64,000 nucleotides of DNA, from contig NZ_SJPI01000002.1 in the NCBI RefSeq assembly GCF_007859865.1, positions 1,384,721 to 1,448,720 on the forward strand, written 5' to 3'. The first letter of the stretch is position 1. Each line of letters begins with the position of its first letter. Below the pieces are notes generated by a model. It saw nothing but the letters and a program-made list of their open reading frames with translations. It ran no database searches and had not been told where the DNA came from. A program made the position numbers and the translations under genes. Positions 471-64,000 of this stretch are shown here, in pieces. Origin of the DNA: Rubripirellula amarantea (lineage in GTDB: Bacteria > Planctomycetota > Planctomycetia > Pirellulales > Pirellulaceae).

Positions 471-2623
471 AACGCACCATCGACATAGCGTGATTCCACC
501 GCACCGACGTCCACGACGTCGTTGTGAACCCGTTTGAAACTCTCACCGCGTTGGTCGAACTCAATTGGGCTGTACACGATCGCTGGGTTACCCGCGTTGA
601 TTACCGGGCTGCCTGCCTCAATCGCGTGAGTGCGGGTCGGGCCGCCAAAGTTCCCCAGGTCTGTCAGGCCGAGATCGGTGACGACTTGGTTGTTCGTGCC
701 ACTGATGGTGCTGGTTATGGTGAACAGGTTGTAGTCACCGATAAACGTACCGCCCCCGCTGACATCGCCCTGGACGATTGAGTTATCGATGGTCGTTGAT
801 GCCGTATTGCCGCGATGGATCGCGTCACCCTCGGTTCCCGCCGATCCGCCAACGATGGTCGAAAGGTCGATGTCAAGCGCGGAGCCATTGGAAGTGAACA
901 GGTTGCCGCCGCGATCGGTAGCCTCGTTCCCCGAAAAGGTACTTTGAACGATGTCGACGACGTCACCGTTGTAGAAACCGCCACCATTTGCCGCAGCGTT
1001 GTCAGCGATCGTACTTTCGCTCAATGTGAGAGTACCGGTGCTGTAGATAGCTCCCCCGCGAGATTGCGTGGCGCTGCCTGTGATCTCAATTTGTTGGAGC
1101 GTTAGATCTTCGACACTTCGAATCGCGCCCCCATCGCCACTAGTCACGTCACCACCGGTCAGCGTCACACCGCTGATGCTGACGTTCAAGTCGGTGCCCG
1201 TCGAATCGTCGACGTCAAAGATGCGAAAGCCATCTTGGGTGTTGAAGATTCCGTCGGTGCCGTTACCCGCATCGATCGTTAATCGGTTGGCACCCGGGCC
1301 GGTGATCGTGACATCTTCGGTGATCGTGGGCAGCTGGCTGGCCAGCGAGATCGTCTCGGCAAATTGGAATAGCGGGCCAATCGTGATTGCGTTGTCACCG
1401 GCGATCGTGTTGCTCAGGTTGATCGCTTCACGAAGGCTCAGGTTCCCCAGCGAGTAGTCGCCATCATCAGTGTCCGAGGTCGAATCGACGACCAACTGGA
1501 ACTCGTAGGCACCAATGTCGATTCTGGTTCCTTCCACGCGCCGATACGGTTTACCGCGTTGGTCGAACTCGCTGGCGCTAAATGTAATTGCTGGGTCGCC
1601 AGAATTTAAAGCCGCACTGGTCGACAAAATGGCGTGAGTCTTTGTCGGTCCACCGTTGTCCGCCAACAGCAAAAGCCCAGGTGGCGTGCTAGTTTGGTTG
1701 CCGGTGCCTGAAATGACGACCGACGATGAAAAGATGTTGTAGTCACCACTAAGCGATCCACCGCTGGCCGATGCGGAACCATCGAAGATCGAATTCGACA
1801 CGGTTGTCGTCGCGCTGACACTAGCGAATGTCGATCCACCCAGCGCCGTGTTGGCGGCCAGTGTGCTTTGCTCGATGATCGCTGCGCTGCCATTCGCATT
1901 AAAGATCCCGCCACCACCGTTGGCAAAGTTGCCCGATACCGTGCTGCGTTGGACGGTGGTTGTCCCCTGATTGAATATCGCGCCACCATTTTCACCAATG
2001 GTGACACCATCATCCACCGCGTTACCTGACAACGTACTGGCGACGATCGACAAGACACCCAAGGTTGTGTTGGCGATGCCACCACCGCTGGTCTGAGATG
2101 CGTTCGTATCGACCACACTTTCAGTCAGTGTCAGCGTCTCGTTGTTCAGGATCGCGCCACCGCTGGCGACTGCGTCACCACCGGTGAACGTGATCCCGCT
2201 GATCGATACATTGATCGACGTTCCCGTGCTATCGTTGACTTCCAAAATCCGATATCCATCGGCTGTGTTGAACGTGTTGTCCGTTCCATCACCCGCGTCG
2301 ATGGTCAGGTTGTTGGCCCCGGTTCCCGTGATCGTCAGTGCATCGGTGATTGTGGGTAGCTGGCTGGTGATGTTGATTGTTTGCGGAGAATCAAACAGCG
2401 GTCCAAATACAATCTCGTCCGCCCCTGCCATCGAGTTGGCCAAAGTGATCGCTTCCCGCAACGAAACGTTGCCAGCCGTCGTGTTGCCGTCGACAACATC
2501 GTTGTTCAGGTCCACCTGCACCGATGCGAGCAACCGTCGTGACTCAAGCGATTCGACGATCATCTTGCGTTTGCGAAAAGCTTGACGAAGGCGTTGGCGG
2601 AGACTTCGTTGCGTTTTACTCAT
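1..2623 (-). CDS. Protein C: LEPR-XLL giant secreted protein with choice-of-anchor Q beta-helix units and ELWxxDGT repeats (3' end outside window)
   Basis: An open frame runs from the ATG at 2623 to the left edge (874 codons) with no stop, so the gene continues beyond the window. The N-terminus is basic (MSKTQRSLRQRLRQAFRKRK) and is followed by a LEPR-XLL-type motif, ESLESRRLLAS (about residues 24-34). Two tandem right-handed beta-helix units of the planctomycete 'choice-of-anchor Q' type come next (about 35-376 and 377-712). Both show NVSLREAI/NLSLREAI, TIDAG.GTD, VSISG.T.TGGD, STxSGN and NGGPT/FGGPTRTHAI. From about residue 713 there are ELWxxDGT repeats. The frame was checked at several points (codons at 2623, 1495, 1189 and 4). 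The start overlaps the stop of the upstream giant gene by 8 bases, suggesting translational coupling. The product is probably an exported structural or surface protein; its function is unknown. Confidence 0.9.
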   Translation of the reverse strand, partial: MSKTQRSLRQRLRQAFRKRKMIVESLESRRLLASVQVDLNNDVVDGNTTAGNVSLREAITLANSMAGADEIVFGPLFDSPQTINITSQLPTITDALTITGTGANNLTIDAGDGTDNTFNTADGYRILEVNDSTGTSINVSISGITFTGGDAVASGGAILNNETLTLTESVVDTNASQTSGGGIANTTLGVLSIVASTLSGNAVDDGVTIGENGGAIFNQGTTTVQRSTVSGNFANGGGGIFNANGSAAIIEQSTLAANTALGGSTFASVSATTTVSNSIFDGSASASGGSLSGDYNIFSSSVVISGTGNQTSTPPGLLLLADNGGPTKTHAILSTSAALNSGDPAITFSASEFDQRGKPYRRVEGTRIDIGAYEFQLVVDSTSDTDDGDYSLGNLSLREAINLSNTIAGDNAITIGPLFQFAETISLASQLPTITEDVTITGPGANRLTIDAGNGTDGIFNTQDGFRIFDVDDSTGTDLNVSISGVTLTGGDVTSGDGGAIRSVEDLTLQQIEITGSATQSRGGAIYSTGTLTLSESTIADNAAANGGGFYNGDVVDIVQSTFSGNEATDRGGNLFTSNGSALDIDLSTIVGGSAGTEGDAIHRGNTASTTIDNSIVQGDVSGGGTFIGDYNLFTITSTISGTNNQVVTDLGLTDLGNFGGPTRTHAIEAGSPVINAGNPAIVYSPIEFDQRGESFKRVHNDVVDVGAVESRYVDGAFELLLDINSLPEISGSSISNVTEVGSLLFFTAFTPDTGSELWSTDGTAAGTTLVSDIWPGTSSSSPAFLTNVGGTLFFRASDEANGSELWKSDGTEAGTSLVTDIRTGSNSSSPGQLTNFGGTLFFTAIDDTHGRELWKSDGTEAGTTLVSDIRAGS
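485..1494 (-). repeat. Choice-of-anchor Q beta-helix unit 2 of protein C
   Basis: A second copy of the same fold: VVDSTSDTDDGDYSLGNLSL, VSISGVTLTGGD, GGAIYS, STFSGN, FGGPTRTHAI, DQRGESFKRV and DVGAVESRY. It aligns motif by motif with unit 1, showing an internal duplication. Confidence 0.8.
1495..2520 (-). repeat. Choice-of-anchor Q beta-helix unit 1 of protein C
   Basis: About 340 residues, opening with VQVDLNNDVVDGN and NVSLREAITLANS and closing with DQRGKPYRRV then DIGAYEFQ. In between are short rungs such as GGAILN, GGGIAN, STLSGN and GGGIFN, typical of a parallel beta-helix. Unit 2 follows directly with the same order of motifs. Confidence 0.8.
2519..2623 (-). other. N-terminal basic stretch plus LEPR-XLL motif of protein C
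   Basis: Residues 1-35 contain about eleven Arg/Lys residues and then ESLESRRLLAS. LEPR-XLL motifs sit near the N-terminus of many very large planctomycete proteins and are thought to relate to export or sorting. No hydrophobic Sec-type signal core is visible. The same arrangement opens protein A, which supports both start choices. Confidence 0.75.
2616..2623 (-). promoter_or_regulatory. 8-base stop/start overlap between proteins A and C
   Basis: The end of A (GAG TAA) and the start of C (ATG AGT AA) overlap as ATGAGTAA. Only a weak GGA lies upstream of the ATG, so termination-reinitiation coupling is the likely way C is translated. It also shows that A and C share an operon. Confidence 0.75.
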
Positions 2624-5600
2624 CTGGATTCCAATCTTCGAAAATTTGGTCGACGGCTAGGTCGGACGTAACACGGCTTAGTGGTAGAGCATCGAAGTCA
2701 CTATCTGACTCGGTGCGAGGATCGTTCGCTAAAAGCGCAGCGATGGCTTTATCGGTAGGGCTGGCGTCACTCTCGTTCATCCAGAACGAAATGTTCTCTT
2801 GGTCGACCGGTGCGACAGAGGTCGGAAGCGCAGCGACATCGATGGGGACGTTGACAAGATGACTTTCCATCTTCAAGTCGATCGCTGGTAATTCCGCAGA
2901 TACGCGAAGTATTCGATTTACGGTTTCTTCAGCATCCTGCTGCGAGAGTACTTCGCTGACGGCTGCGTCTTCGTTTCTTGCAAGCGGCAGTTCTGATGCC
3001 CCGCTTCCGACGATGATGTCCACCGTCGTGGTCGATGTGCGTAGATCAAACAAGTAGGCGCCACCGGTGTTGTTGTTGGGTCGGTTGTCGAGCCAAGAGC
3101 CGATCACCGCTGAATCACCGCCCAGAGCAACGCTGATTCCATACTCATCACGCGTGGTGACTTGCTCATTGATCAGAATGCGAGTTTCACTCCACACGCC
3201 ATTCGATTGTTCGAACAGGTACGCGCGTCCTGAACTGTCACCACCTTGGTCCGCCTGAGTGGCTCCCACGGCAAGTCGCGTTCCTTCGAGCGAGACCGAC
3301 CAACCAAATCGGTCGCCTTGCAAACCGTCGCTGGCGAGAAGTTTTTGCAATTGCCCCCAGTTATCGGTGCCGCCGAGGTTCTGTTCGAACAGATACACCG
3401 AACCAAGTTGGTTCTTACCATTCTCGTCGTCTTGCCTTGCTCCCACGGCAAGAGTCCCACCGCTTATGGATACCGAGTATCCAAACTGATCTGCGACAAC
3501 TGAATCAGCAGGCTCGATCGCACTCAGTTCGCCCCAATTGCCAATGCCACCTGCATTGCGGCCAAACACGTAGACCGCACCGGTGTCCGTGCCAATTCCA
3601 TCGTGACGAAACGCTCCCACAGCAATCAGATCACCATCGATTGAAACGGATTGCCCAAAGCGGTCTCCCGCGGCCTGGGTGCTGCCAGTAATCTTTTTCA
3701 CTTGGCCCCAATTATCGATTCCGCCCTGGTTTCGCTCAAACACATAGGCGGCACCGGATGACGTGCCGACAGGGTCTGCAACGCTAGCACCAACAACGAT
3801 CGTATCGCCCGATAGTGCTACCGAGCGACCGAACAGGTCACGATTAAAAGTGTCATTTCCAGACAACTTCTTAACCAAGCCCCAATTATCGGCACCGCCA
3901 TGATTGCGCTGGAATACGTAGATCGCACCTGATCGGAATCCATTACTTGGATCCGTTTCTGCGCCAATTACGATTGTGTCCCCGTCAATAGCCACACTAC
4001 TACCGAAGTGACCACGAAGCCCTGACGCATCCAACGACCCGGTCAAGTGAGCGACCTCAGTCCACGTCGATTCTCCTGTTTTCTGATAGACGTAAGCTGA
4101 ACCCGCATCGCTAATTCCGTCCGGGTCATCTAAGAACGATCCTACGACGGCAAACTCACCATCCACCGCGGTCGCGTATCCGAAACGGTCGCCAGCACTC
4201 GCGCCAGTGTTGGTCAATTCAACGTCTTGAATCGCAACGGTGTACTCAAACGAATCTGAACCGGTGAATCCAGCATTGGGTGTGTAGGTGATCGTCCCGT
4301 CGCCGTTATCCGTCACGGTTCCGTTGGCAGCACTGCCTACACTTAGCACTTCGATCTCGCCGGTCGGCAAGTCATTATCTAAGACCGGAATCATCACGGA
4401 TGTATTGACCGGTGTAATGACACTGTCAGGATTAGCGAGCGGCAAATCACTTTCGCCCACAACAACCACCGAGGCGGTCGCAGTCGATTCGATTCCATCA
4501 CGGTCACGTATCGTGTACTCGAATGAATCCGTTGCCGTTTCGCTGGAATCCAAGTTGTCGAACTGACCATTGGGATCGTATTCGTAACTTCCGTCCGAAT
4601 GTACTGTCACCAAAGCACCAGAGGGCAAGACGACTTGCTTGCCGACGACGGTCGCGTCACCGTTGACCGCGATGACGAAGGTTTGGTCGTCGAGGTCTTT
4701 CTCCACATCATTGGCTAACAGGCCCATCGCACGGTAGTGCGCCGAAACACGATCCAGATTAAGCGCTCTGTTGTACAACGCGACTTCGTCGATCACGCCT
4801 GTGAAGTAAGCACCTTCGACACCTGATACCGATCCATCATGGAACCGAGTGTTGGTTCGGTAAGCAGCGATCCCAATATCGCCACCATTGGGACTCAATC
4901 CGCCTCCCCCACCAAAGTTGGTAACGGCCGAAGCAACCAATACACCATTGACGTAAAGCGACATTTCAGGGCTGTCGAAAACAGCCACGACATGATACTT
5001 GATATTGCTATCCACATCGGTATTGATAAACACCGGCGATCCGTCGTAGACACCGAAGTAAAGCTTCCCACCATCGATGTACAAGCTAGATCCGATGTTC
5101 GTTCCACCTTGTTCGTAAAGAACTTGTCGCGATCTAACGTCATCAGCACGGAAGATCACTTCAAACGACTTCTCAAGTGCATCACCGGTGTAGGTGTTGA
5201 TCAGATCGCTATCCTCGACGGCAACAAAACCGTTGTTGCTGAAGTAGCGCGAACGATCCTGGCTTGCGCCGACCAAACTAGCCATCGTCTTTGAACTGCC
5301 GACGTACACTCCATCAGGCGAGATTGGTGACAGTTCGTTAGCAGCAACTGTCCCTTGTTGTTCGCCGAAACGCCAGTAAGCAACGGGTTGGTCCGCGAGC
5401 ACTTGATCGTCATATCCACCCTGACGAACGACCAGAGGAGCCGAAGCCGAAGCCGTCGCGATGTCGTCGCCCGCTTCGGGAGCGTCATTCACACCGTGAA
5501 TTTGGACCGTCAATGTCGAGGTTACATTGGACAGTTCATCAGTGATGATGTAGTCGAATGTTTCCGACAGAGTTTCGCCCGCGGAAAGCTGCTCTATCGC

Positions 5601-35828: not shown

Positions 35829-35835
35829 GATTGCA

Positions 35836-35938: not shown

Positions 35939-35953
35939 GTGATCCCTAATCAC
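35939..35953. promoter_or_regulatory. Inverted repeat GTGAT-N5-ATCAC, possible operator
   Basis: A perfect 5-base inverted repeat with a 5-base spacer, ~110 bases upstream of the protein A start. ACACGT or its complement occurs around it at 35872, 35935 and 35987. It could bind a dimeric regulator. Arms this short also arise by chance. Confidence 0.25.
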
Positions 35954-36200
35954 TTAGAGTCACCGTGTCGCCACCCCAACCAAAAACACACGTGAGCCAA
36001 AACCAACCTCACTAGCAAGCTAGCTAGCGTGGCCATGTTCCCCCACATAGGTGGCCAGGTCAATCCTGAACGTGCGTCCCCCACGGGAATGTTTGTCAAT
36101 CAATTCCGTAGTTCATGTAGTGTGCATTGGGGCACTGTTTGCACCGCTTTCCTGGGAGTAGCGAACATGGAACCTCAACGTTTTGAGCGACTCAAGTCGA

Positions 36201-36437
36201 TCAATGTCGACCTTGTCGCAACACCGTTACAAATTGACACGCAGTGCCCGCCGGCTTGACAGAATTGCCATACTCGCTGGCCAAGGTTGCCACGTTGGTC
36301 CGCTTGGTCGGCGAGCACGACCACGATCGCTGGCGGGCATCAACACGGACGCGGCGAGCAACCGTAGACGTCATTACCGCGAAATCAAATGCGAACAGCC
36401 GTCTAGTGATTCCGTCGGAGCACTCAACCCGCATCAT
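36201..36437 (-). CDS. Possible 78-residue ORF overlapping the end of protein B (doubtful)
   Basis: An ATG at 36437 overlaps the TGA of B by 14 bases, and the frame runs to 36201. The product is Arg-rich (MMRVECSDGITRRL at the start, VLRQGRH at the end), with no domain I recognise. It covers the inverted-repeat element at 36246-36338, so it is more likely a chance frame across a repeat than a gene. The overlap and same-strand position are the only points in favour. Confidence 0.15.
   Translation of the reverse strand: MMRVECSDGITRRLFAFDFAVMTSTVARRVRVDARQRSWSCSPTKRTNVATLASEYGNSVKPAGTACQFVTVLRQGRH
36246..36338. repeat. Long inverted-repeat element (10-bp arms, 73-base loop)
   Basis: GCCCGCCGGC at 36246-36255 pairs with GCTGGCGGGC at 36329-36338 (nine pairs plus a G-U in RNA). 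A second hairpin, GGTCG/CGACC with a 7-base loop, sits inside the loop. It lies 86 bases downstream of the stop of B. It could be a dispersed intergenic repeat, a structured RNA or a processing signal. Confidence 0.45.
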
Positions 36438-36625
36438 TCACGATCGCATCTATCGCGGAATCAACAAGCTCAGGCAACCACTCTGCTTCCTCATCTGAAT
36501 CGTCATCGTCGTACCACAGCAGTTGATCGGCGGTCGTAGCGTTGTCGGTGGTCATCGACGATTGATCTTCCGATGCTGAACGTCGTTCTATGTTGAACTC
36601 TGGTGACGTCGGCGAAACGTAGACA
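36424..36625 (-). other. Acidic C-terminal tail of protein B
   Basis: Ends LLWYDDDDSDEEAEW then LPELVDSAIDAIVNDAG: an Asp/Glu cluster next to an amphipathic stretch. Compare the acidic tail of A. It could be a C-terminal export signal, as in RTX proteins, but no secretion genes are in view. Confidence 0.5.
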
Positions 36626-60600: not shown

Positions 60601-63600
60601 GTCGTCACCATCTTGTCCGAGTAAGATGTCGTCACCTTCGCCGCCGAAGATCAAATCGCGACCCGCGCCGCCGCGAATGAGATCATTGTTAGCACCGCCG
60701 TAGATCCAATCATTCCCCAGTCCACCATCGACTTCGATCGAAGCGAATGCAGTGGCCCTCGTTTGGATGTCGCCGCGATAGATGCCGTAGGATTGACCAC
60801 CAAGGATCAAACCAGGATCGGCGTGGAACACGTCAGCTCCGTCGCCCAATTCGACTAAAGTTCGTTCAACGTCCTTAGCCTTGAAGAATGCGAATTCCTG
60901 AGCGTATTGGTCCGCGTCGTAAGGATCTTGCACAAACGAATTGGAAAGCATGTCCCAAACTAAGGTCGTGAACTTGTGACGATGCAAGAATCGATCATAT
61001 CCAACGACGACATAATCACGAATCGGGTCGCCCTGATTGTCCAAACTACCACCGACGTACAACACTCGATCGTCGCCAGCACCGCCAACGAACAGATCTG
61101 CGGTCGCTGAGTCACCAGGTCGACCTGTCAGAGGATTGACGGGCAGCGTGTCGGCGATGATTTGGAAAGTGTCGTCGCCTTCGCCGCCAAAAAGCAGGTC
61201 TTCAGCTTGTTGGTCCTTACCACCGGACAGGACGTCATTGCCGAAACCACCAAACACCCAATCTTCGCCCGAACCACCCGCTAAGCGGTCGTTACCAGTG
61301 CCACCAATGATGACGTCACGGCGTTCGTACGTTGACTGGTTGCTGAAGTCGATTGGATTGTTTCGTCCGTAATCAAAATCAGGACGTTGCTGCAAACGCT
61401 GCGATGTGACCGAGAAGATTTCAAAATTGGTTGCTGCACCCAGATCAAACTCGGCGCCTGTTCCAGCGTCCGTTTGATACGCTTCGGACGCCACGATCAC
61501 TTGCAAGAAGTACTTGCCCTTCGCCAGTCCCTCAAAGTCCAAAACCGCGCGACCGCTGGAAACCCACTCAGGGTGCTGATCACTGTCCTCGCCGTCGGGA
61601 AGCAGATCCTCCAACATTGTTTGCGTGCGCAAAACATTGCCGTCTTCATCAACGAGTCGCAGTTCGAGCACGTTACTAAAGTCAGGTGTCTGATCATCTT
61701 GGTCGAGCGATGCGACCGAGCGGATGCCGATGCCCGAGCCGACGGTGCCGGTTTCTTCCAATGCTAACGAATACCAAGCCGATGGATTTTCACCATTAGA
61801 AACGACACCAACCTGTTGACGTTCGGGCTGGAAAGTCAACAAATTGTTGATCGCATAGGCCGAAGCACGATCCACATTACCGACTGGCTTTTGCTGGCCG
61901 ATACGGGGAACGATGGAATATCGTGCTGGACCACCCGATACCTGCAAGAAATATTCGCTGCTGGCTTGCTGGAAGTACTCGAAATTTGTCCCGCTACCGA
62001 TTTCGGAGACATCCAAGGCAACTCCACCGCCAATCTCGCGAACGGTCGAGAACGTTACCTGATTTTGCCGCGCGATCGCGGTGACGGCATCCGGTGCCCA
62101 AGGCGCAATCTTCACGTTGGTAATAGAACTCTTAATCGCCTGAGCGATCTCACTGGCGGACGCAGTCAGGCCGAAGTCTTCCTTGGTGACCGAGTTCACC
62201 GAAACTTGAATTTTCTGTTCGTTCGAAGTTGTTGTGTACTGCGAAAACTCAATCAAGATCGTGGGCTCAGCAACCAATAGTTGAGTCGTTGCGCCGACAA
62301 GTCCCGATGCGTCGAGCGTCAACCCATCGAGTCGTCGCCCTGAACGCAGGCCGATCACGGGTCTGCTGTTGGCTGCACTAGGCAGACCCGCATCGTCGCG
62401 GAGTACTACTTCCAGCTCACCTGGATAAAACACGGACGAACCACCCATCGTGTAGAGCGCCGACGCGATTGCCGCAGCTTCAGCGTCAAAGGCGATCGGC
62501 GTTGTCGTCTGGCCACCATACGACAACGTGTACGTGCCACCCGAAGCGCCGTCGATTTCCAATCGCGCGTAACTGCCTCCATCGAGTTGGAAATCTGTTC
62601 CATCAAGTGATGCTGCATCGGTTGACGTTGGCACCACGAGACTGGTCAACGGCAAAACTGAACTCAGCGCACCGCTGACCATTTCAGCGGTGCGGAACGC
62701 GCCACCAGGTTCATGGACTGTGGCCGAAACCGTGGCCGTAGGCGTGTGCGATAGAACTTCCAGGGATTGCCCGGTGCTGGCTTCCAATAAATCAAACTGG
62801 AACCAATCGACATCGGCAGCGTCGGAAAGCGTTAGGCCTGTCGCTTCAGCGATTTGGTGAATGGCAGCGAGTGGTTTCGTCGATGCACTAGCGGCGGCCT
62901 GCTTGGAATCATTCGGTTCCGCGATGTCGGTCGACTGAGCCAGTTCGATGCCGATCTTGTACTCGGTTGGTATCGCGCCCACGGAGAACACTCGCAAGTG
63001 ATACGTCTTGTCCTTGACCAAGCCGACGTCGCCCAGGTCGATCGGGCTGTCGCTCAGGCTAGGATTGATCGAACCAGGATTGGTTTGTCGCATCGCCAAC
63101 AAGGTATTGCCGTCGTAGAGCGAGTAGTCCAAGTTGACGCGGTTGATTCCCGATACGGATTCGACTTCGAGCAAGTCGCCCATCAGCGCATCCTTGCTCA
63201 GTTGGAACTTGTACCAATCGACGTCTTGCTCATCGCTTCTCGCGCTGTCAAAGGTCAGTCCTTCAAACACTCGGCTACTATCAAGCGGCTCGATAGGATC
63301 AAGCGGTAACGTGATTGAGCCTGAAGAATTTAGCGCCGTCGATTTGGCTTTCGTGTCGTTGCGATTGCCAAACGGATCAGTTCGATCGGGCAAGAATGAT
63401 ACTTGAGGTTCGATTTGTACGGTGTCGTCGCCGGCTCCAGCATCCACCCAGACCGTTTTCTGCACGGTTTCGCCAACCGTGATCGTGTCATCGCCGCCGA
63501 GCGAGTCAATGATGATCGCCAAAAAGTCAGCTTCGGGACCGAACACTTTTTCGACGATGTCGGTGGACGTGACACCAAAGTTTTCAAGCTGCGTGATTGT

Positions 63601-64000
63601 TGAAACCTCTTGACCAGGGTTCGCGGCGCTGGGACGCACGCGAACGTTTTCAGCCAACAACACATCATCCATACGACTGTGAACCGCTTCGTCGTTACGA
63701 TCAAACGCCGAGAACGAATCGAATCCGTTGAATCGTGGATCAAACGATCCCGTCGTGCTGAACGTGACTTGGTGACGCCCGAACAACGGGTTGTAAGGGT
63801 TGGTGACATAGTTGATGTCGATGTCATCGTCGCCTTCCGAACCCGCCAGATACCACGCAGCATCGGTGCTCTTGGCGTATTGCTTCCAAGCGTCATCCGT
63901 CGTCAGGTCGTCTTCACGATTTCCAAAAGGCGTGCCGTGGCGAGTGACAAGGAGGTCACCGTTCGTACCGCCGCCGCCATTGCCGTACAAGAAATCGAGC
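36424..64000 (-). CDS. Protein B: giant RTX/FG-GAP/LRR/delta-60/PKD/cadherin-like protein, paralogue of protein A (5' end outside window)
   Basis: An open frame of ~9,190 codons enters from the right edge and ends at TGA 36424-36426; the true start is outside the window. Order from the right: RTX and PPC-like units, RTX, golvesin-like domain split by delta-60 propeller 1, FG-GAP propeller, lectin-like sandwich, PPC-like domain split by an FG-GAP propeller, LRRs interrupted by delta-60 propeller 2 and by a golvesin-like domain holding a glycine-rich block. These are followed by LamG B1 in an Ig-like domain, an SdrD_B-like domain split twice, delta-60 propeller 4 in a PKD-like domain, a PKD array, a cadherin, a cadherin-like domain enclosing the last FG-GAP propeller, and an acidic tail. 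Motif order follows the C-terminal half of protein A. I see no cysteine. It is probably an exported, calcium-binding surface protein. Confidence 0.93.
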   Translation of the reverse strand, partial: LDFLYGNGGGGTNGDLLVTRHGTPFGNREDDLTTDDAWKQYAKSTDAAWYLAGSEGDDDIDINYVTNPYNPLFGRHQVTFSTTGSFDPRFNGFDSFSAFDRNDEAVHSRMDDVLLAENVRVRPSAANPGQEVSTITQLENFGVTSTDIVEKVFGPEADFLAIIIDSLGGDDTITVGETVQKTVWVDAGAGDDTVQIEPQVSFLPDRTDPFGNRNDTKAKSTALNSSGSITLPLDPIEPLDSSRVFEGLTFDSARSDEQDVDWYKFQLSKDALMGDLLEVESVSGINRVNLDYSLYDGNTLLAMRQTNPGSINPSLSDSPIDLGDVGLVKDKTYHLRVFSVGAIPTEYKIGIELAQSTDIAEPNDSKQAAASASTKPLAAIHQIAEATGLTLSDAADVDWFQFDLLEASTGQSLEVLSHTPTATVSATVHEPGGAFRTAEMVSGALSSVLPLTSLVVPTSTDAASLDGTDFQLDGGSYARLEIDGASGGTYTLSYGGQTTTPIAFDAEAAAIASALYTMGGSSVFYPGELEVVLRDDAGLPSAANSRPVIGLRSGRRLDGLTLDASGLVGATTQLLVAEPTILIEFSQYTTTSNEQKIQVSVNSVTKEDFGLTASASEIAQAIKSSITNVKIAPWAPDAVTAIARQNQVTFSTVREIGGGVALDVSEIGSGTNFEYFQQASSEYFLQVSGGPARYSIVPRIGQQKPVGNVDRASAYAINNLLTFQPERQQVGVVSNGENPSAWYSLALEETGTVGSGIGIRSVASLDQDDQTPDFSNVLELRLVDEDGNVLRTQTMLEDLLPDGEDSDQHPEWVSSGRAVLDFEGLAKGKYFLQVIVASEAYQTDAGTGAEFDLGAATNFEIFSVTSQRLQQRPDFDYGRNNPIDFSNQSTYERRDVIIGGTGNDRLAGGSGEDWVFGGFGNDVLSGGKDQQAEDLLFGGEGDDTFQIIADTLPVNPLTGRPGDSATADLFVGGAGDDRVLYVGGSLDNQGDPIRDYVVVGYDRFLHRHKFTTLVWDMLSNSFVQDPYDADQYAQEFAFFKAKDVERTLVELGDGADVFHADPGLILGGQSYGIYRGDIQTRATAFASIEVDGGLGNDWIYGGANNDLIRGGAGRDLIFGGEGDDILLGQDGDDIIAGNWQLDGGGVRNSGDPSNSYMPYGAPGTPDQPGAMPMTRLEASSVYTSTLAYPLSGSRPRQTGVEFGVVGPTLVDDTSLNFFTSGNWQSVASGYASGESSPSHQFARGGFSSLPTDLEYNFLGDTLVDSTGRIAVSQFGYDFTTNEVQLSVKRFLPDGSADSSWGIEGTAALESVSASFLMEDQAGGYYLAGGKSINRIDANGVRDNTFSVDLDPAYTTAGLSNVTTRQVRVSPSGDIFVFGEAMQSGNKVATLTRVLSDGTISTFGGQSVWTSNGVYSIPAGSFILDFQFTSNDGLALLIQKRVDSLDSDVAVVQLTSAGVLDAQFGVGGAFEFGFGTGRMAPRHLERASDGSLFVSGAYDATSFSETSYPFLMKLTSAGALDTTFNTTGYVELTQYTGGNFYNPDLVITGAASPQITLQSTDFTNETATNLQLRFDSAGLPDVSFGDSGIVAIDQLDGFVVKEAVVTPSGGVLFAGKLQFDPERSEEIGLVRIGSNGEDDATLGSPFASWTFTGLPDGRYTIQTTWTAESDSTASAIYSVSTDPFDNEPNGTSAKSVTQLASPSDRHWGGTSWHQLKEAGTGTAGQNGGKSMVVEVVDGFLRVFLKAGAIGRLQADAVRIEPVVEDAFAWDGVTANSPLARFVGSGDLNADGKADYVFADNANAYVFFGPVDPRSQFRIDTTDLNGDAVKDFRVRGEDWTYDVNFDSSNDLTNSKELYRIGGRADVIYRVGTATEGAIAIGNFIGDVIGAADIAVLSGTNTLKIYSGGSGLSREVLQASPSKTITLASGLSGTRIESVNWNNDGRQDIAFIASTGNGSNLLGHVYSGAGLDVNSATILTTLTADTTDRSNEFGSASLPPNFTLEPSNSSYRFVNVGDVDATPGDELLLVDSSYAEFLHMFGSERLPNVGRAYLVGNSSASIDLTSDVFVWQDFALAYPHAVGDVNQDGFGDFAVSKDQQKDDDLFIGPHTDGGVYIISGTKSYQSATPQVFHNAPGSELAGGGFVTLNARLAEIRIDSPQDQWLSGRIFVNAGDFDNDGRTDVAIGRPSTSLVDASGSETLLDDRGSVSVFYGLGAVSLQESVEGRDTFNQDSNGVYRYLSQADATLSGEATGDGFGILSSTPMWDIDQNGFADLLVASSGANSTIGLSNGFDANAGRVYTFYGSPRSAALPNAGFEWLTNRDIPESGLYLVEQADGQPFRTTEELFGSGDLDFAVMETLNRFSPVIDQSEIVGENLELVGSAASASVRTLPETAPTATNPGLWLDYRALVNLDSVVDGRAGIVFDYRVANSGRVTYKFAGYDSDTSKFVIATVVKETPASDDEWTIVASATTAPISVTTELQLSTSTDVATLSIDGVGVLSHDFDAVLNRGQIGLLATGTAQFNHLSVTDSQRWYKFSTLGDGQIGDVLKVRSRIGDDGSEVESTSRPAAPQTYESSQTDRVRTALLGTDQSQIQTHSGVLARNPDGSTGPTSVALQAGGTDDLVSIIEVDLSRFMTYTDDPNGIELAELVLNGIDLGAAATPWDVGIQSIAVEGDTMVVGTGDGVGPGLVYLFQRTNGQWELETTLEAPVSVAGNFVSSNINFGQSIAIDGDTLAIGGILSNGSDHSVAIYRLTNSVWTPTQILHRSILGGNSNQTNEFGNSVAINNGLLAIGAPKELSFSNERGAVHFYTLSGNTWTFLSQLQSSISPQPEHFGAAFALTETDLLVGAPDRDVDVGGGMIVTDAGAVARYSRSGTNTFAHVGSFTQATPVAGGRFGAFVVADSTQWIASAPGDNGGAVLVRDNATNTVSQTILAGMTGGNFGATLSLDGDRLSIGSPLADDTGLTDSGEAVMLTRSGTTWSTIDTQQGIANNGQLGTGMIVAGDEWIYGEALGSLGSRLQVRSIGSSSTALSQILRDQDYELQVEVLDREGDFAPDAADTTSPATRFHNTLGQHSSVMLSDVEVSGSAVLDLTQQVRDALSAGRTRLTLRISSDTTAGAISFNALELASPSITQPSNLTIKTSLRHGLVADVYDTDGSLLGDSLAIMDLRNLPAGDYAIRVYDPFEDANSIVYRRLTAEGRFAERDALIASYRRDVQLKYAIEIEAPKMGESHAVLDRDEISGGLGNDFIQGNGYVDRIYGGLGIDTITAEELEVRDLGTVLGPFYDGAPYNFGDVERNIRVLPAQHEFSSISARPIDFDVPFDPDDTDRILERLIAHELGLAVFVTDDTGNEFLQSPTLRASDLTRLIELDASGLGLADDFDVIDVGFHDYSRDGDGNSLTSGIGDTIRSNLAGIEYATNLEILSLADNSISNLSMFEPGIRLGREEQGELGLKNLQYLDLDFNPIIAAPNEAYPATVNRPLEPVSRLLYLNFLSLDDLSGEKQVDDLATAPGAAGTSYDLRDVSGLTQLRKLSARGLSIGAAGKPDWGFGGHGESGALDSYTSIDDDSFGYAVGVDQKDRIVAAGYSFGSFGDNQFSVTRFNPDGTLDASFGTNGSVIKKIGDDEGLVQGLKILPTGEIIAVGYTRDTESGEWNFAMIKLLEDGTFDSSFGTLGVVETDFQYHDIASAVELQGDKIVVAGYSSTSSSSTTRDVFLARFNSNGQLDSTFGSGGTVYQQVGPNRSEARDIEIRESGEIVVTAYAYNDAGQAWRNIAILQFTRDGQLDTSFGDGGTAFHVFSDTYSFGEAIELTDNGKILLAGTIVSSDASTIYRSYVSRLNADGSLDRTFGSLGITNFNGSDSRVYDIEEQSDGRIVVVGLQTQLSITGAPWDPTIHRFLEDGQLDSSFGKNGRVVARANDLDDRLNGVALQSDGSIVSVGGVQPSWRMNVSKFLPDDAYAVDQLANLTKLQVLTLSDNQIRDISALAGLSGLHWLDLDNNRVDSIDALLGQSILTTDDRGQGYLENGTGFGGGENASAFEGQYRLIASQATEASATFTFEDIAPGVYDIFTTWTDNPRFDSEVTYRVGNPAQATTLSDLGVSPFTTRSLSGAELPSESRTVIINTTNLTIAGDDDFADLFFGTPFVATVEEGIARFYVFGDLRIGGETTISAAGERPLSIVVANDVVLGSDVIFKASADEQTAGPGGGTVGSNDARGGSGGPGGDNAGSQGSQGQAWTWDTESQSTLTGAGGNGGRGPWQQNIGAVAFAGLASPSGNSGRTGAAGLIGTGGLVATVPGEGGFNNAAGGGASGATGGAAADNSGIFGDGGSGADNSGTFGDGAGVPGYRQSGAAGKTGENGTAGQAGEGGSPGGAGNPGTNNLAGLLLSGGGGGGTGRGGGGGAGGGAGGGGGGGGASPMPGSNGVTNSTGGTTYYHAASGHGGGGGGRGGDGGQGQAGGVGGIGGAGAGAFEIYAMGLLIANADFQSIGGDGLAGQPGQVASGSYYTGYDGNGGGSPTSSTYSSWGDGNTNRKAPAAAGSGGVGGKGGAGGAGGVGGAGGGGAGGTVKFVASEIVSTTGKVNTDGGQGGTQGGDGRFIHLDNVQGVTSFAVSNSSEINENQFSTSDDPLGFVLSSNPFLGVGVESPNIVGLYHGADAFGFLGDYDDASGATLRLSSDRVFSSDLLNSDDPTTKNRVEGIAPSDAFAALLRVDMGPLGFSQDYSGYDMLLFVGWDDLNDGAGIVNPRLGVDGALQQLRERGFENGGSTTTVTAFGNGVFATLIPETSIDVQFGGEINGRLVLNRADVANGQVLYLTDGGREVLVDQSKPTAIGDYQNLGDVAWKAIDSLEVKSGELGTTQVTIKGSGAGAVSIDSIRLQRRGAPQLDVLNLSGNPLGERAQAVILPALEQPEPLEFKTADLGPVGSVVGVPSASVNPVQFVGTRFYVDQPMQVTEVGAHLKTAGGDGPFATIVALDSANDFPDSTDLSTPDVIAHATIPMSIGDSVDAVVEIDAILQPGWYGLLLGSGLFGTTGNSVAPLNNLNTGNENLFALVNGVFINDAALEGIRLFVHGEAIEESVVVAEPATTLIKGVLAERYDPIAVSSVAPIAIPTQGNGTAQVRVSGSEYARVTATSNVAGVNLDVIEARPGSYDIEVESTTDYEGLVTVSVTAEAMQQNIDGYRQNILETSGLIGYWPLDDVSAGITEDISGNEIDGVVSGGVATSLQTPINGDPASVDFHGGAVALSGLNVTSTPSEFNTVSFWLNWDGTNGLMPFGFDGYDLHFVNATTGIYSGQVVFGFNSNQSDSWAAPATELYNNWVHVTALFANGSPESSRLYFNGIEQVLVRSRSAPVSKNATTIATIGGWATSSSFRFDGRINEFAMFNRALTTEEIRAQVSAGVTPHHTGRSVTKTFTVSVGQSVLSGTKYLDENGDGFRSGSNDVQQVVQDLDASKFFPLNETQIGVISEVQGNSSAIVPATGVSLGVAGAWGNSGDNAYQFHGGMISVDDAVNAYSFDKTADGVNTVSFMMKWDGTADDTGRVPLGISTQHLIFAGGRFGFGRAPGGHWSATAEGFADRWVHVIAEFHNDSIANGRLWIDGIEQELTLAINADVVPAAPTGLQLTLGGSPMNLGYRFKGSLDAVAAFNRGLSDEEIAELSNATKNPQVEPGDEGTTIFLDGYVGSDYVPELVNGLFDLGETLTVTALDGGYQFNGLESNRSYDVRQQLPGNQTETQGGSEHDYRKLFDLGPDSFSGTPADLVEFNDAIYFTADRGGSKGRQLQRYRDGHVEELSSANGFSADELTLWNGEIYVTGFEAGVGRQLFRFVPSTDTLEQLTFGGAAGLDPQGLTVVGSQLLFTAEPTIGRRTLWSFDGVEPQEVASLVSGGLWAVQPQTGDILRYHSGTLQIVDRFPAPGNLQPTDTQIGLTISEAGNSLLYVNSDDDPTKLYRLDPATGLQRSVEVISALGVDGLGADVSFRELYSADMDTDPGWTYTGQWAYGVPQGNNSDPSSGFDGPNVVGYNLAGAYATNLSTTHYATLPAFSTRGMVDVLLEFDRKLFVNYSDLANLQIRLDGGSWTNLWSSTDGVYDYEWSAQRMSLPMAADHDQVQFRFGIGPVNSSFGNAGWNIDNVRVTARPNALFLSRDGIELVRQTGYSGSQTPTWAAESPTGGVGGDDNGRTFAFFNDGTNAEIREFDPYADTDSFIRMVAAPASDIEGLAFDGTQLFASTASGTIYVLDADPGNFGTILSQGSATHGLYGLASAPIVTTGSTVESVLSGQSGVWFEGSSNGLGLGIGGSSEIHYPTIESFDTGPHVAAIDPEGRILFAISTYEGDQFTPPVLRLYRYESNGVPDPSFGRDGELRLTLSTYFSISDVQFTESSIVVGGSLGSETFLYKFDRFGNPQTGFGSNGLKTVSIPNFGVTDFVALDDGRVVLLGSIYQNSQSDIAVVGLNAAGDLDTSFGTSGYSYVNTTASEYAFDLSRISDGSFIVGGYVSGASSNQVLLAKLTSNGVFDAAFGLSGKRLIDLGSSSRLPRSMRIDESGGFVFAGVDGSSPFSLRATPAGLIDTTFGVNGFVLSTEVYDYLYQIGIDSQNRMVVGADAASSQEFVARLLADGTPDLSFGDNGRYEYPQTGGGLRNNPVFDAQGRMFLSSQADYGVGGPNNYDPLLVVLNDDGVTDQSFNPTAYEPVVWFADGLTLDIAMARINGEPLVNVREHLQIGSTLYSVSGTLSKPDSQTLYRLDGYQVTELFVPVEGTNLINLREQAGHLYFVGTAAGETERKLWVYDNATVAEAVSIPSGFQLPDDPQISVFNGDTYLVVDSVDQPGQLQLASVQQGAIELRGRINGSYGVWGVRPSTGQIVQFNAATGAEVASFQAPGNLQAFHENIGLSIAEGGATLLYVNSDDEPNALYRIDSFTGTVLSKTSTAASGVVDGIGANASNQTVIANWSDWSTSNGWSFSAPWANGVPQGVAGDPASGYTGAQVLGYNLSGAYANNLASTNWATSPAFSTIGLSDITLDFQRWLGIEFAYYDHAYIQLSTNGSDWTTIWENPAFSSVVETSWRFQSIPLPAQAANAGSVRVRFGLGTTDSSVTYSGWNLDDVQIKGFQSPLFYSVDGTVIRRHNGYNSSSGTTFTAITPSGGIGGDDTSRMFVIRDSGQISEFDPQTQAIISTFSLSGSHPQGLAFDGQYLYASNAEGDLYTLDPNSGTVVNRVLLPDGALFGLGALAAGRIADSEPKLTVVDNQLYVTAGSSIGLPKLHRLEGSQLVEVADVRLGPLGSNPNDISQLASELILSADDGLHGRELWAIGQTVGGAYRALPGVGQAISGLDFGALDVVVSSQPLTLLEGGYHTFSSTISAPEGANQAKYRFELLQKIGEDQFTVVTSAPWTDLVIGDGSGINGTEVSQTFIVPDDGDYEVRTTVDSIVVGDGSISIDLGQDEAAAASVEDSSGRTITAVYRTITGGAAGTSGGYLVARLPDGSVDSSFGSNGIASLTTYQPTSLHLDANGKLVVGAKQGSSFIAMRFNSNGTADVTYGNNGKTLVSPGGSLSTVITKLLPDGATRTLINASGSYAMIGLDASGQLDATFGSSGFQAIGLSDFYPYAFALESDGSVYVAAMRNYTADETANVLKLLPSGATDSTYGVNGVATLAATVGNGRNDRPTAIEVDSTGRVLFAIQSTLSSNRDWLVARLLANGSVDSTFGTSGSVNSLGSGTQDILNLLVDSSDNAYLVGQALVSGSTITWQPTVKKLTSAGILDSTFGTAGILELGPERVFSVPQTQLLADDSLLITLSDLQNKATGPDVDAILYRLLPSGIPDYGFGASADPLSYVDAQRVTVNPVAPTLTLNGLPPASEQVDWSYTVSFGDPGDDSWQALVDYGDGNVETFDGSALASRSFTLNHRYADDGIYTLMVSITDLDDELAVVDSYDVIVGATAPQITTVTQPSGVVVDEASEWTGSGFVRDGSDTLRIQADYGDGTVVFVPLKSRDTNTGVVGFDLSHVYADDGDYTVTVTVFDDDDQLVSAPSTITATIANVLPTLDGELVVPTGIIEGVPVDLSAVFSDPGDDTLTIQWDFDYDGTTFDVEASGDQVQHTFADNRPVGESFLVAIRAWDGALDALSQPVYSQLEFINVQPDNALPVIDPLLIPTTTTEGTPLVFDAREFVSDASGDVLGFNWVIKNSAGNVVVSSSDPDITFNNPDFTFTPINDGLYTLELTVFDDEVDGRFDADTLDDSGERRGEDFVTVDLTVGNVAPQFSIVGASTAGEGTPLTFNTGSTLVEPGAQDTLELTYRWTVTTDNEAVVAESLTNELSFTPDDDGTYWISLTVDDDDTSVTETHRLIVSNEAPVLTSLQVFDNLPANVPVRFSGAFTDSAAGDDHTAVIKINPTLPIIVDADNFDFEYTFPGPGVYEVEFEIRDFDGGLTREIRTVVVGDADLIAPALTITAPVLQGTALPVFSGTIANPDGASSDPLDAASAIQVTINGATLPAINNGDGTWSLATTTPLISGRYDILVTATDIAGNEGSVVGQTTLVLHSPVDIAIDQIEVLENSDTSATDTFFGTLSAVDDDAFDAFDFALVAGTGDTDNGRFHVSGGQVFLNQGETLDFETKPTYSIRVQTTDSLGNTFARALTLNVSDFPDGALAAIDDQVVVPQDTATTVTVIGNDSPSGEIVLVGNTDGLHGTVTRNGDGTLTYTPDAGYTGNDSFDYTIGFKDVELTSPENTTGDRSGFSVDIAGDLAVVGSYLDDPGGLTNAGSAVIYRRTGDQTWTEVARLVGDTTANGAQSSFGSSVAIDGDTVVVGAQYDRGLGFRAGAAYVFERNQGGTDNWGLVKKLTGLDTITRDLFGRSVDISGDTIVVGASTADPVGSASGAAYVFNRDSGGIGQWGEVKKLVGSTQAAGDRFGQSVSIWGDDIAVGAFRHDGAAGNDSGAVYLFKRNRYGTEAWGELKAITAPDGAAADNFGYSVAIQGNTVVVGAPLDDEGGTNQLGSVYVLSRNQGGSNNWGVVSKLLADDGNAGDRLGISVSFDGTRIVAGASQADSGGDRSGRAYLFESDGSTWSQTRVLVNDQVTTADEYGISVAVRGDVSVVGAWLDNRPSNNSGAAYVYDLRTDTGTVDVYVSPTSPEFNIERRSASEDQSSMTTDNATTADQLLWYDDDDSDEEAEWLPELVDSAIDAIVNDAG
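36630..37840 (-). other. C-terminal FG-GAP propeller of protein B
   Basis: FGSSVAIDGDTVVVGA, FGRSVDISGDTIVVGAS, FGQSVSIWGDDIAVGA, FGYSVAIQGNTVVVGAP, LGISVSFDGTRIVAGAS, YGISVAVRGDVSVVGAW. It is closely related to the protein A propeller (3.0-4.2 kb), with shared runs such as STQAAGDRFGQSVSI. It is nested before the last strand TGTVDVYVS of a cadherin-like domain. Confidence 0.9.
37840..38660 (-). other. Bacterial Ig-like, cadherin and cadherin-like domains of protein B
   Basis: PALTITAPVLQGTALPVFSG ... SGRYDILVTATDIAGNEG (Ig-like). IEVLENSDTSATDTFFGTLS ... LDFETKPTYSIRVQTTDSLG (a true cadherin-type repeat, with the LDFE.....Y.I.V...D pattern). AAIDDQVVVPQDTATTVTVI ... GTLTYTPDAGYTGNDSFDYT (cadherin-like, host of the terminal propeller). 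Confidence 0.8.
38660..40490 (-). repeat. PKD/Ig-like array of protein B
   Basis: About six consecutive units: LVDYGDGNVETFDG...HRYADDGIYTLMVSITDLDD; IQADYGDGTVVF...HVYADDGDYTVTVTVFDDDD; IQWDFDYDGTTFD; FNWVIKNSAG...INDGLYTLELTVFDDE; YRWTVTTDNE...DDDGTYWISLTVDDDD; FEYTFPGPGVYEVEFEIRDF. These are uninterrupted spacer domains. Confidence 0.85.
40490..41660 (-). other. Delta-60 propeller 4 of protein B, inserted in a PKD-like domain
   Basis: ARLPDGSVDSSFGSNG, MRFNSNGTADVTYGNNG, IGLDASGQLDATFGSSG, LKLLPSGATDSTYGVNG, ARLLANGSVDSTFGTSG, KKLTSAGILDSTFGTAG. The host before it ends PDDGDYEVRTTVDS, and the strand after it is AQRVTVNPVAPTLTLNG. Confidence 0.8.
42090..46770 (-). repeat. ELWxxDGT-like block with duplicated WAVQPQTG/MAM-like unit and delta-60 propeller 3
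   Basis: ELWxxDGT-type phrases: DAIYFTADRGGSKGRQLQRY, EIYVTGFEAGVGRQLFRF, LLFTAEPTIGRRTLWSF and, at the far end, LILSADDGLHGRELWAIG. Two related units lie inside (about 46.4-45.2 kb and 43.5-42.3 kb): LWAVQPQTGDI/VWGVRPSTGQI, PAPGNLQPTDTQIGLTI/QAPGNLQAFHENIGLSI, LLYVNSDDDP/LLYVNSDDEP, VGYNLAGAYATNLST/LGYNLSGAYANNLAS and GWNIDNVRV/GWNLDDVQI. The MAM-like part of each is a jellyroll. Confidence 0.7.
43900..45090 (-). other. Delta-60 propeller 3 of protein B
   Basis: YRYESNGVPDPSFGRDGEL, YKFDRFGNPQTGFGSNG, VGLNAAGDLDTSFGTSG, AKLTSNGVFDAAFGLSG, RATPAGLIDTTFGVNG and ARLLADGTPDLSFGDNG are successive delta-60 blades. The propeller lies between the two duplicated units of the ELWxxDGT-like block. 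Confidence 0.8.
47000..47650 (-). other. LamG domain B2 inserted in the SdrD_B-like domain
   Basis: TVSFMMKWDGTADDTG, RWVHVIAEFHNDSIANGRLW, LDAVAAFNRGLSDEEIAEL. It shares its layout and phrases (SFW/SFM, NWDG/KWDG, FHGG) with LamG B1, so the two are likely recent duplicates of each other. Confidence 0.8.
47795..48450 (-). other. LamG domain B1 inserted in an Ig-like domain
   Basis: LIGYWPLDDVSAGITEDISG, TVSFWLNWDG, WVHVTALFANGSPESSRLYF, INEFAMFNRALTTEEI. The strand before the insert is GLVTVSVTAE (~48.5 kb) and the one after is TKTFTVSVGQ (~47.75 kb), which read as the last two strands of one Ig-like unit. Confidence 0.8.
50190..51410 (-). repeat. Glycine-rich (PGRS-like) block of protein B
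   Basis: About 400 residues dominated by GG, GA and GGX steps, e.g. GGGTVGSNDARGGSGGPGG, SGGGGGGTGRGGGGGAGG, GHGGGGGGRGGDGGQGQ and VGGKGGAGGAGGVGGAGGG. It contains duplicated units ADNSGIFGDG/ADNSGTFGDG. Short beta-helix-like strands flank it (LRIGGETTISAAGERPLSIV before, TVKFVASEIVSTTGKVN after). It may form poly-glycine-II-like packing or a flexible coat. Confidence 0.85.
50753..50772. repeat. In-frame CCG/CGG trinucleotide microsatellite
   Basis: Six to seven consecutive CCG units on the + strand (CGG Gly codons in the gene), with a second shorter run at 50813-50826. Slippage would add or remove glycines without breaking the frame. Confidence 0.8.
51960..53980 (-). other. LRR domain of protein B interrupted by delta-60 propeller 2 (52125-53345)
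   Basis: LRRs: TRLIELDASGLGLADDF, NLEILSLADNSISNLSMF, NLQYLDLDFNPIIAA, LRKLSARGLSIGAAG. A delta-60 propeller then follows (VTRFNPDGTLDASFGTNG, IKLLEDGTFDSSFGTLG, ARFNSNGQLDSTFGSGG, LQFTRDGQLDTSFGDGG, SRLNADGSLDRTFGSLG, HRFLEDGQLDSSFGKNG). LRRs then resume (LANLTKLQVLTLSDNQIRDI, LHWLDLDNNRVDSIDAL). Confidence 0.85.
54390..56400 (-). other. PPC-like domain split by an FG-GAP propeller (protein B)
   Basis: The host begins RWYKFSTLGDGQIGDVLKVR (~56.35-56.41 kb). It resumes at NLTIKTSLRHGLVADVYDTD (~54.59 kb) and continues LRNLPAGDYAIRVYDPFE. In between are ~560 residues, including a propeller with INFGQSIAIDGDTLAIGG, FGNSVAINNGLLAIGAP, HFGAAFALTETDLLVGAP and FGATLSLDGDRLSIGSP. Protein A carries the same host domain uninterrupted at 13945-14205. 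Confidence 0.8.
56420..57050 (-). other. Lectin-like beta-sandwich of protein B
   Basis: GIVFDYRVANSGRVTYKFAG, KFVIATVVKET, TTELQLSTSTDVATLSIDG and NRGQIGLLATGTAQFNHLSV resemble the 3-keto-disaccharide-hydrolase/LamG-type sandwich used as a binding module. Family assignment is tentative. Confidence 0.5.
57080..58690 (-). other. FG-GAP/VCBS beta-propeller of protein B
   Basis: FVGSGDLNADGKADYVFAD, VNWNNDGRQDIAFIAS, VGDVNQDGFGDFAVSKD, NAGDFDNDGRTDVAIG and WDIDQNGFADLLVASSG. Homologous to protein A 16.5-17.6 kb. Confidence 0.85.
58715..60390 (-). other. Golvesin-like domain split by delta-60 propeller 1 (59080-60265)
   Basis: The N-terminal part is LVDDTSLNFFTSGNWQSVAS then GYASGESSPSHQFA. The C-terminal part begins SWTFTGLPDGRYTIQTTWT and ends FLRVFLKAGAIGRLQADAVR. 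Joined, they give the usual golvesin/xanthan-lyase-type domain. Between them lies a ~390-residue propeller of delta-60 repeats (KRFLPDGSADSSWG, LTSAGVLDAQFGVGG, LTSAGALDTTFNTTG, FDSAGLPDVSFGDSG). Confidence 0.8.
60590..64000 (-). other. RTX and PPC-like region of protein B (collinear with protein A 17.8-20.4 kb)
   Basis: FLYGNGGGGTNGD at the edge, then AIIIDSLGGDDTITVG, VQKTVWVDAGAGDDTVQI, a PPC-like unit (VDWYKFQLSKDALMGD ... TYHLRVFSVG), a second unit (VDWFQFDLLEASTGQ), SGGTYTLSYGGQ, a third (AWYSLALEETGTVGSG ... GKYFLQVIV). RTX follows (RRDVIIGGTGNDRLAGG, 61.1-61.33 kb), then FTTLVWDMLSN, GADVFHADPG and VDGGLGNDWIYGGANND. Protein A lacks the extra PPC-like material at 61.4-62.9 kb. Confidence 0.8.

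Follow-up and report, generated by a model that had tools for sequence, protein, structure and literature searches.

Two giant paralogous genes with domains nested in domains

The stretch analysed here, called the window throughout (64,000 nucleotides; C2:1384721-1448720 of the 6.95-Mb genome of Rubripirellula amarantea), holds two giant open reading frames (ORFs) for proteins A and B, in which whole domains appear to interrupt other domains (Table 1). The frame of protein B ends at 36424, has its start beyond the window and is open for 14,314 aa, up to window coordinate 79368. Proteins A and B are paralogues, judging from several co-linear BLAST blocks (longest: A 4263-5495 against B 4178-5480, 33% identity, E = 9 × 10−116) and from a C-terminal module of 60% identity (A 10452-10951 against B 13758-14262). 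The planctomycete export motif Planc_extracel (PF07595) was matched at the N-terminus of A (26.6 bits; cut-off 25.5), and RTX calcium-binding repeats (HemolysinCabind, Pfam) are present in both proteins.

The sequence-only reading of this DNA had counted at least ten host domains split by complete inserts, and that count held. Parts of both proteins were read by eye (A 5601-11070 and B 8601-14314), with junctions set by eye for 13 cases. Eight inserts in A and five in B have an un-inserted homologue, and about 11 of these thirteen sit inside a host domain; for four (the two A Big_9 cases, B golvesin and B SdrD_B/LamG) the homologue shows an undivided Pfam domain across the insertion point. At the level of sequence, this confirmed that A and B hold at least ten inserts within other domains, some of the hosts being named by eye. 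Among the inserts, Pfam named LamG, DUF5122/delta-60 and FG-GAP, in agreement with the first reading; the segment at A 7378-7534 that had been called MAM-like matched Reelin_subrepeat-B best (29.9 bits; cut-off 27). The NPCBM match of A 6461-6717 (18.7 bits; cut-off 23.9) and the InhA-like_MAM match of B 12047-12261 (15.6 bits; cut-off 26.9) were below threshold, and a Pfam scan gave no name to the insert at A 9294-9468. Host domains were poorly recognised by Pfam: Big_9, golvesin and SdrD_B stood as hosts through Pfam domains in homologues, while the LRR cap, PPC and PKD-like hosts are partly named by eye or below cut-off, the labels “PPC” and “ELWxxDGT” having been assigned by eye. The inserts hosted by Big_9, PKD-like, SdrD_B and golvesin domains, seven in number and 175-1,578 aa long, all exceed the Pfam models of their hosts (80-132 positions) in length. 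In Big_9 the insertion point is near the 20th of 89 positions, a sequence position that fits an exit after the first strand of a host whose structure was poorly modelled.

Table 1. Giant frames and inserts in the window, with residue numbers in proteins A and B and nucleotide positions in window coordinates.
Feature	Window position	Strand	Remark
Protein A, 11,070 aa	2616-35828	-	ORF
A 10452-10951, C-terminal module (Big_9 + FG-GAP_2 propeller)	2976..4475	-	candidate nesting only
A 10131-10368, LamG in second Big_9 (C half 4434-4724)	4725..5438	-	absent in G001
A 9699-9914, LamG in Big_9/cadherin-like host (halves 6735-6830, 5814-6086)	6087..6734	-	absent in G001
A 9294-9468, lectin-like insert (by eye) before last strand of the PKD-like host of A 8991-9215	7425..7949	-	
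A 8991-9215, LamG with permuted strand order, near first strand of PKD-like domain	8184..8858	-	
A 7557-7793, LamG (96.5 bits) in LRR N-cap (cap by eye)	12450..13160	-	G001 cap contiguous
A 7378-7534, Reelin/MAM-like insert directly before LRR cap	13227..13697	-	absent in G001
A 7053-7210, insert in PPC-like stretch (host by eye)	14199..14672	-	absent in G001
A 6461-6717, NPCBM-like insert adjoining LamG, between FG-GAP repeats	15678..16448	-	absent in G001
Protein B, in-window part, residues 5124-14314	36427..63999	-	ORF, 14,314-aa frame
B 13758-14262, C-terminal module (Big_9 + FG-GAP_2 propeller)	36583..38097	-	candidate nesting only
B 12552-12958, delta-60 propeller before last strand of PKD-like domain	40495..41715	-	candidate, by eye
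B 10863-12440, 1,578-aa multi-propeller insert in the SdrD_B host shared with the B 10572-10791 LamG	42049..46782	-	
B 12047-12261, MAM-like domain in propeller within the 1,578-aa insert	42586..43230	-	absent in G222
B ~11103-11270, first MAM/Reelin-like copy, paralogous nested unit	45559..46062	-	
B 10572-10791, LamG in SdrD_B (parts 47656-47733, 46783-46995, 41989-42048)	46996..47655	-	
B 9226-9956, glycine-rich block in golvesin (halves 51694-51957, 49354-49500)	49501..51693	-	
B 8666-9088, delta-60 propeller in LRR (parts 53374-53691, 51958-52104, 49246-49353)	52105..53373	-	

Empty insertion sites in related genomes

To locate homologues of A, its insert-free scaffold was searched by tblastn against 241 genomes of the family, its own included (G-numbers denote these genomes, suffixes a, b and c individual loci), of which 110 matched at E = 10−12 or better. 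At least seven genomes (G212, G039, G215, G035, G027, G001 and G033) gave a single high-scoring segment pair (HSP) over about the first 645 query residues, spanning three junctions at 40-47% identity (E = 7.3 × 10−102 to 6.5 × 10−129), and G003 and G225 did so over the same three junctions at 30%; counts of empty sites in A are lower bounds, three candidates having been scored per genome. The match in G001 spans a fourth junction as well. The G001 homologue, 9,894 aa long and from the same genus, was compared with A from end to end using an aligner that permits long gaps. The score was 13,176; one shuffled G001 sequence gave 501 and the reversed sequence 583. The two are co-linear (45.9% identity over 7,354 aligned pairs), with 13 segments of >60 aa only in A and 6 only in G001. 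In its natural state G001 has full Big_9 domains (1-89 of 89, Pfam) at 9043-9143 and 9277-9389, and the LamG inserts at A 9699-9914 and 10131-10368 map to G001 9061/9062 and 9298/9299, within these intact domains. A and G001 may be either orthologues or older paralogues, as the scaffold tree is poorly resolved.

Filled and empty states coexist at several of these sites. The host is contiguous in seven genomes at both PKD-like junctions; the first (A 8991-9215) is filled in G212b and G213b, and the second (A 9294-9468) holds in G213a an insert 60% identical to that of A. Related inserts occupy the position of A 10131-10368 in 5 other scaffolds, and the G212 genome carries one empty and one filled A-type copy. 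When the insert-free scaffold with an added Big_9 was searched against 294 genomes from the phylum, 9 matched at E = 10−20; the non-own matches listed cover mainly the cadherin-like part, and some, such as that in G050, span the second Big_9 junction unbroken.

For B, a scaffold query made of the LRR, golvesin and SdrD_B parts matched 23 of the 241 genomes (own included) at E = 10−6; 14 loci were examined, 13 of which had a usable frame. Six loci have an empty LRR/delta-60 site (G213, G212c107, G212c7, G037c22, G055 and G193). Delta-60-like sequence occupies it in G222, G037c121 and G207; in G088 and G014 the occupant is weakly similar or other sequence. For golvesin and its glycine-rich block, G213 and G055 have an empty site, seven loci a filled one and G014 a partly filled one; neither G088 (flanks too weak) nor G014 (its contig ends in the glycine-rich part) entered the count for this site. 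At the SdrD_B/LamG site six loci were empty (G213, G212c107, G055, G207, G022 and G077), their gap edges lying no more than about 10 residues apart, and G222 was filled; the non-aligning loci G037c121, G037c22, G212c7, G193, G088 and G014 are omitted from this count. The insertion point lies inside the Pfam match of each un-inserted golvesin homologue (G213 and G055: Golvesin_C 17-131 and 2-132 of 132; 47.4 and 45.9 bits, cut-off 31.6) and of three un-inserted SdrD_B homologues (G022, G077 and G207: 46.5, 35.0 and 32.1 bits, cut-off 29.7). As for the 1,578-aa insert, one HSP bridges both SdrD_B junctions in G022 and in G211, although these may be other SdrD_B copies, and for G211, which had no frame in the locus alignment, the HSP is the whole of the empty-site evidence. 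G222 has this site filled, its two frames being separated by a run of unknown residues; G222 alone was used for the alignment of B 10863-12440, which against most homologues gave many short blocks of 22-35% identity that are possibly chance. Comparison across the 241 genomes thus found inserts present or absent at A and B sites, as the first reading had anticipated. Both the nesting and the variable occupancy of A, B and their relatives can be read directly from these alignments.

Nesting depth

Nesting two levels deep had been claimed at first, and one stretch of B appears to reach three. B 10990-11400 and B 11980-12360 form a duplicated nested unit (42% identity over 385 columns), and in each copy a MAM/Reelin-like domain splits a propeller-like stretch. 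The second MAM-like domain (B 12047-12261) is missing from G222, where the two flanking stretches (38% and 43% identical) follow each other directly. The order SdrD_B, outer propeller, inner propeller and MAM-like domain would therefore comprise three insert levels, the outermost and innermost because homologues have empty sites there; the middle level we infer from outer propeller blades recognised by eye around the duplicated unit. The series LRR, golvesin and glycine-rich block would comprise two levels, of which golvesin in LRR is an unproven candidate based on the LRR splice gain given below.

Insertion sites and insert families across the family

A map of insertion sites was built from nineteen loci (best of the A-scaffold search) plus A, B and G003, aligned to G001 8153-9480. 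Between G001 positions 8560 and 9420 the A-type scaffolds (B excluded) carry thirty insert segments at least 90 aa long, two of which, both in G216b, probably belong to a single insert. Seven loop regions, none wider than about 40 residues, are in use in two or more scaffolds, and those at 8582 and 9165 in one each. On the best scaffold tree (22 rows, in which G031, G187a, G187b and G003a were kept despite poor alignment or missing host stretches), eight regions require minima of 3, 2, 1, 5, 3, 3, 1 and 4 state changes (sum of about 22); these counts are soft, and orthology is unsure, because 11 of the 19 inner branches are open.

Of the thirty segments, 19 link to one group that holds the LamG inserts of A. 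G118_8858, G118_9165, G124_8852 and G129_8852 form one clade (99/99) across two sites, and a weakly supported group (83/79) of A_9061, A_8747, G212b_8750 and G179a_8582 spans three sites. Two sites are also occupied by a second insert family, whose five members are ~46-59% identical; the 9049-9061 region holds LamG in A and this second family in G118 and G179a. Insert families recur at different loops, and a single loop can hold different families. A_9061 and G212b_8750 share two blocks that have changed places (49-214 to 3-175, and 5-40 to 183-217, E = 1.7 × 10−4), so that LamG inserts exist in two strand orders at different host sites, as circular permutations.

Relatives thus have the same scaffold with different slots filled, and binding modules therefore seem to have been added, lost and swapped. 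A history dominated by loss, in which the inserts are ancestral and empty homologues are deletions from a once fully loaded megaprotein, would account for the insert at reference 9285-9298 that is common to A, G212b, G039, G118, G129 and G216b, since inserts at 9285-9312 form one clade (98/95) and the tree is unrooted. Several inserts are rare, however (2 filled and 20 empty in the 8829 region; 1 and 19 at 9165), and one insert family at different sites needs movement or duplication, which leaves such a history unlikely. The loops may instead be reusable sockets, between which whole binding modules, normal or circularly permuted, shift and are exchanged, probably by recombination via conserved host flanks; we put this forward tentatively, as a possibility with rather less than an even chance. 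If true, the giant genes would be a natural plug-in display system whose binding repertoire evolves by cassette exchange.

Traces of such events were sought in the DNA. No obvious repeats indicative of target-site duplication were seen in junction DNA (by eye only), a reading that is uninformative since protein divergence of about 40% would have erased them. GC content at third codon positions (GC3) of 16 inserts (0.49-0.62) falls inside the spread that 220-aa windows of the two proteins show, with 15 of the 16 below the pooled host stretches (0.591), and gives no clear sign of recent foreign origin.

Splice tests and structure models

The 13 cases were rebuilt as 10 insert-free constructs and scored with Pfam, the same pieces in swapped order serving as control. 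The expected family rose in 4 of the 10 (natural against swapped order): the first and second Big_9 of A (48.2 against 33.9 and 48.8 against 36.8 bits), LRR_4 of B (61.4 against 44.5 bits) and Golvesin_C (28.8 bits over profile 22-132, below the cut-off of 31.6, against 24.7 over 22-78). For the insert core at A 9699-9914, the best Foldseek matches were pentraxins (serum amyloid P, TM score 0.69 of target), and the core therefore models as a pentraxin/LamG jelly roll. AlphaFold was applied to A 9583-10010 (model 1, 8-row alignment) and A 8880-9570 (model 2, 5 rows). In model 1 the block means of the predicted local distance difference test (pLDDT) were mostly 73-88 for PKD and up to 95 in the LamG core, and 27-43 for the first LamG strands.

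Besides the open branches of the scaffold tree, several results weigh against conserved, exported frames with split hosts. Six of the 10 constructs showed no Pfam gain (both C-terminal Big_9/propeller cases, A PKD, B PKD, SdrD_B and FG-GAP). For the FG-GAP_2 propeller in the last Big_9 of A and B, scores were 58.8 against 60.4 and 52.4 against 53.6 bits, and nesting of the C-terminal propellers is for this reason not claimed. The spliced B PKD construct (delta-60, B 12552-12958) had no PKD match, and the spliced B PKD and SdrD_B constructs gave single weak hits to other families (DUF7490, 20.5 bits; CarboxypepD_reg, 13.5 bits). Among un-inserted homologues, neither of two PKD homologues tested was recognised by Pfam above cut-off, a fourth SdrD_B homologue (G213) scored 21.7 bits (cut-off 29.7), and LRR matches were weak in two LRR homologues, with one above cut-off (LRR_4, 33.2 bits, G037c22). 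The Planc_extracel match of B reached only 19.2 bits (cut-off 25.5). In model 1 the Big_9 halves had pLDDT of 27-53, so that the packing of separated halves into one domain, which the first reading had expected, was not seen at A 9583-10010; model 2 (mean pLDDT 46) left the split host unresolved. Both models appear neutral on host folding, neither supporting nor refuting it. They likewise lend nothing to a shaft with laterally projecting inserts, while the accompanying proposal of modular gain and loss at loops agrees with the empty and filled sites.

Constructs without gain and hosts that AlphaFold did not assemble are what one would expect if the inserts were separate domains in plain linkers and the “halves” divergent full domains, with nesting an illusion. 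We regard this as highly improbable, because natural un-inserted homologues have a single Big_9, Golvesin_C or SdrD_B spanning the insertion points, by which it is already contradicted for these three hosts as far as their sequences can tell, and host alignments are contiguous in seven genomes.

Termini and neighbouring frames

The Big_9 + FG-GAP_2 C-terminal module of A has 54-66% identity to at least 12 other places of its own genome, B included. By contrast, the tails of the five A-scaffold homologues read to their ends are EF-hand/dockerin-like. The C-terminal tail looks to have been exchanged in the R. amarantea lineage. The end of A is overlapped by a third giant frame (4,465 aa; C2:1373979-1387376, of which window 2-2656 is a part), which has the same C-terminal module, so that the three giant frames are arranged head to tail. 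A further giant frame with LamG domains, truncated at a contig end and still at least 8,622 aa long, is found at G000:C2:1-25866. At the other terminus, A residues 174-239 (window 35112-35309) have matches to DUF7379 (30.2 bits) and Palm_thioest (17.2 bits), both below cut-off. The N-terminal part of B (residues ~70-1600) matches VWA7_N (38.0 bits) and FlgE_D2 (47.2 bits), which is unusual beside RTX and LRR.

Proposed function

We consider it very probable that A and B are exported giant scaffolds bearing accessory domains in host loops that are exchanged among family members, most likely as multi-headed adhesins. The conserved frame would consist of PKD-like, Big_9/cadherin-like and SdrD_B beta-sandwiches together with LRR, golvesin and propellers, and whole accessory domains, largely LamG-type jelly rolls and propellers, would sit in host loops, often (by sequence) beside the first or last strand. 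These would be gained, lost and swapped at recurrent loops while the frame is retained; the frame would provide reach and the inserts would be laterally presented putative binding heads, comparable to the split domains of RTX adhesins. The shaft geometry, ligand binding and adhesion are putative.

Ligand binding by the inserts being putative, A and B might also be structural matrix, predation proteins or enzymes, with inserts as spacers or catalytic accessories, as the weak lipase/thioesterase-like matches at the start of A and the VWA7_N and FlgE_D2 matches of B could suggest. This seems somewhat unlikely given that 19 of the 30 insert segments link to the group containing the LamG inserts of A, LamG being a lectin-type fold, and that RTX split-domain heads include carbohydrate-binding modules (PMC12077191, in excerpt).

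On the adhesin-like reading, a giant protein could diversify by plugging modules into a conserved frame. The family also offers a natural record of which Ig-like, PKD-like, SdrD_B, LRR and golvesin loops tolerate insertions of ~150-1,500 residues, which is relevant to the folding of discontinuous domains and to protein engineering.

Comparison with known systems

The split-domain ligand-binding regions of RTX adhesins have reportedly been treated by Graham et al. (2024, Proteins 92:933). No HemolysinCabind match, as for a C-terminal RTX beta-roll, was found at the C-termini of A and B (Big_9 + FG-GAP_2 and a short tail), no search having been aimed at a type I secretion signal; lacking the C-terminal beta-roll, neither A nor B is strictly an RTX adhesin. 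Excerpts of PMC12077191 describe RTX adhesins of Gammaproteobacteria in which ligand-binding domains project from split domains, among them AhLap of Aeromonas hydrophila, a protein of >40 domains with three ligand-binding domains, two-level nesting and a chain that exits one split domain after the first strand. As in that split-domain architecture, complete domains in A and B interrupt Ig-like or other hosts, with a second nesting level. Unlike it, A and B have at least ten cases in two larger proteins of another phylum, with mapped presence and absence, putative binding, and PKD-like, Big_9, SdrD_B, golvesin and LRR hosts.

Domain insertion (A1-B-A2) is itself common: a survey based on ECOD (PMC13114784, in excerpt) reports it in ~20% of multidomain proteins, with up to six nesting levels in cyanobacterial RNA polymerase, so a discontinuous host with a complete insert and multi-level nesting is known. 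There the insert is smaller than the host in 77.0% of events (median 115 against 199 residues), whereas inserts in A and B exceed the Pfam models of their beta-sandwich and golvesin hosts. Lineage-specific insertions of bacterial RNA polymerase (PMC11515920, in excerpt) likewise vary by lineage in a conserved frame, although that frame is an enzyme core and no modular exported scaffold. Very large ORFs are also known from giant genes of Planctomycetes (PMC5177795, in excerpt), the same phylum, and the titles and abstract openings of open-licence papers searched held no description of nested domains in planctomycete giants. The sequence-only reading had not recognised any protein built in this way; given the split domains of RTX adhesins and the domain-insertion survey, the kind of architecture is known, and the novelty lies in the scale, in the types of host, in inserts that exceed their beta-sandwich hosts in size and in a family-wide presence/absence map of recurrent sites. 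With the inserts as candidate binding heads, the split-domain adhesin principle would thereby extend to planctomycete megaproteins.

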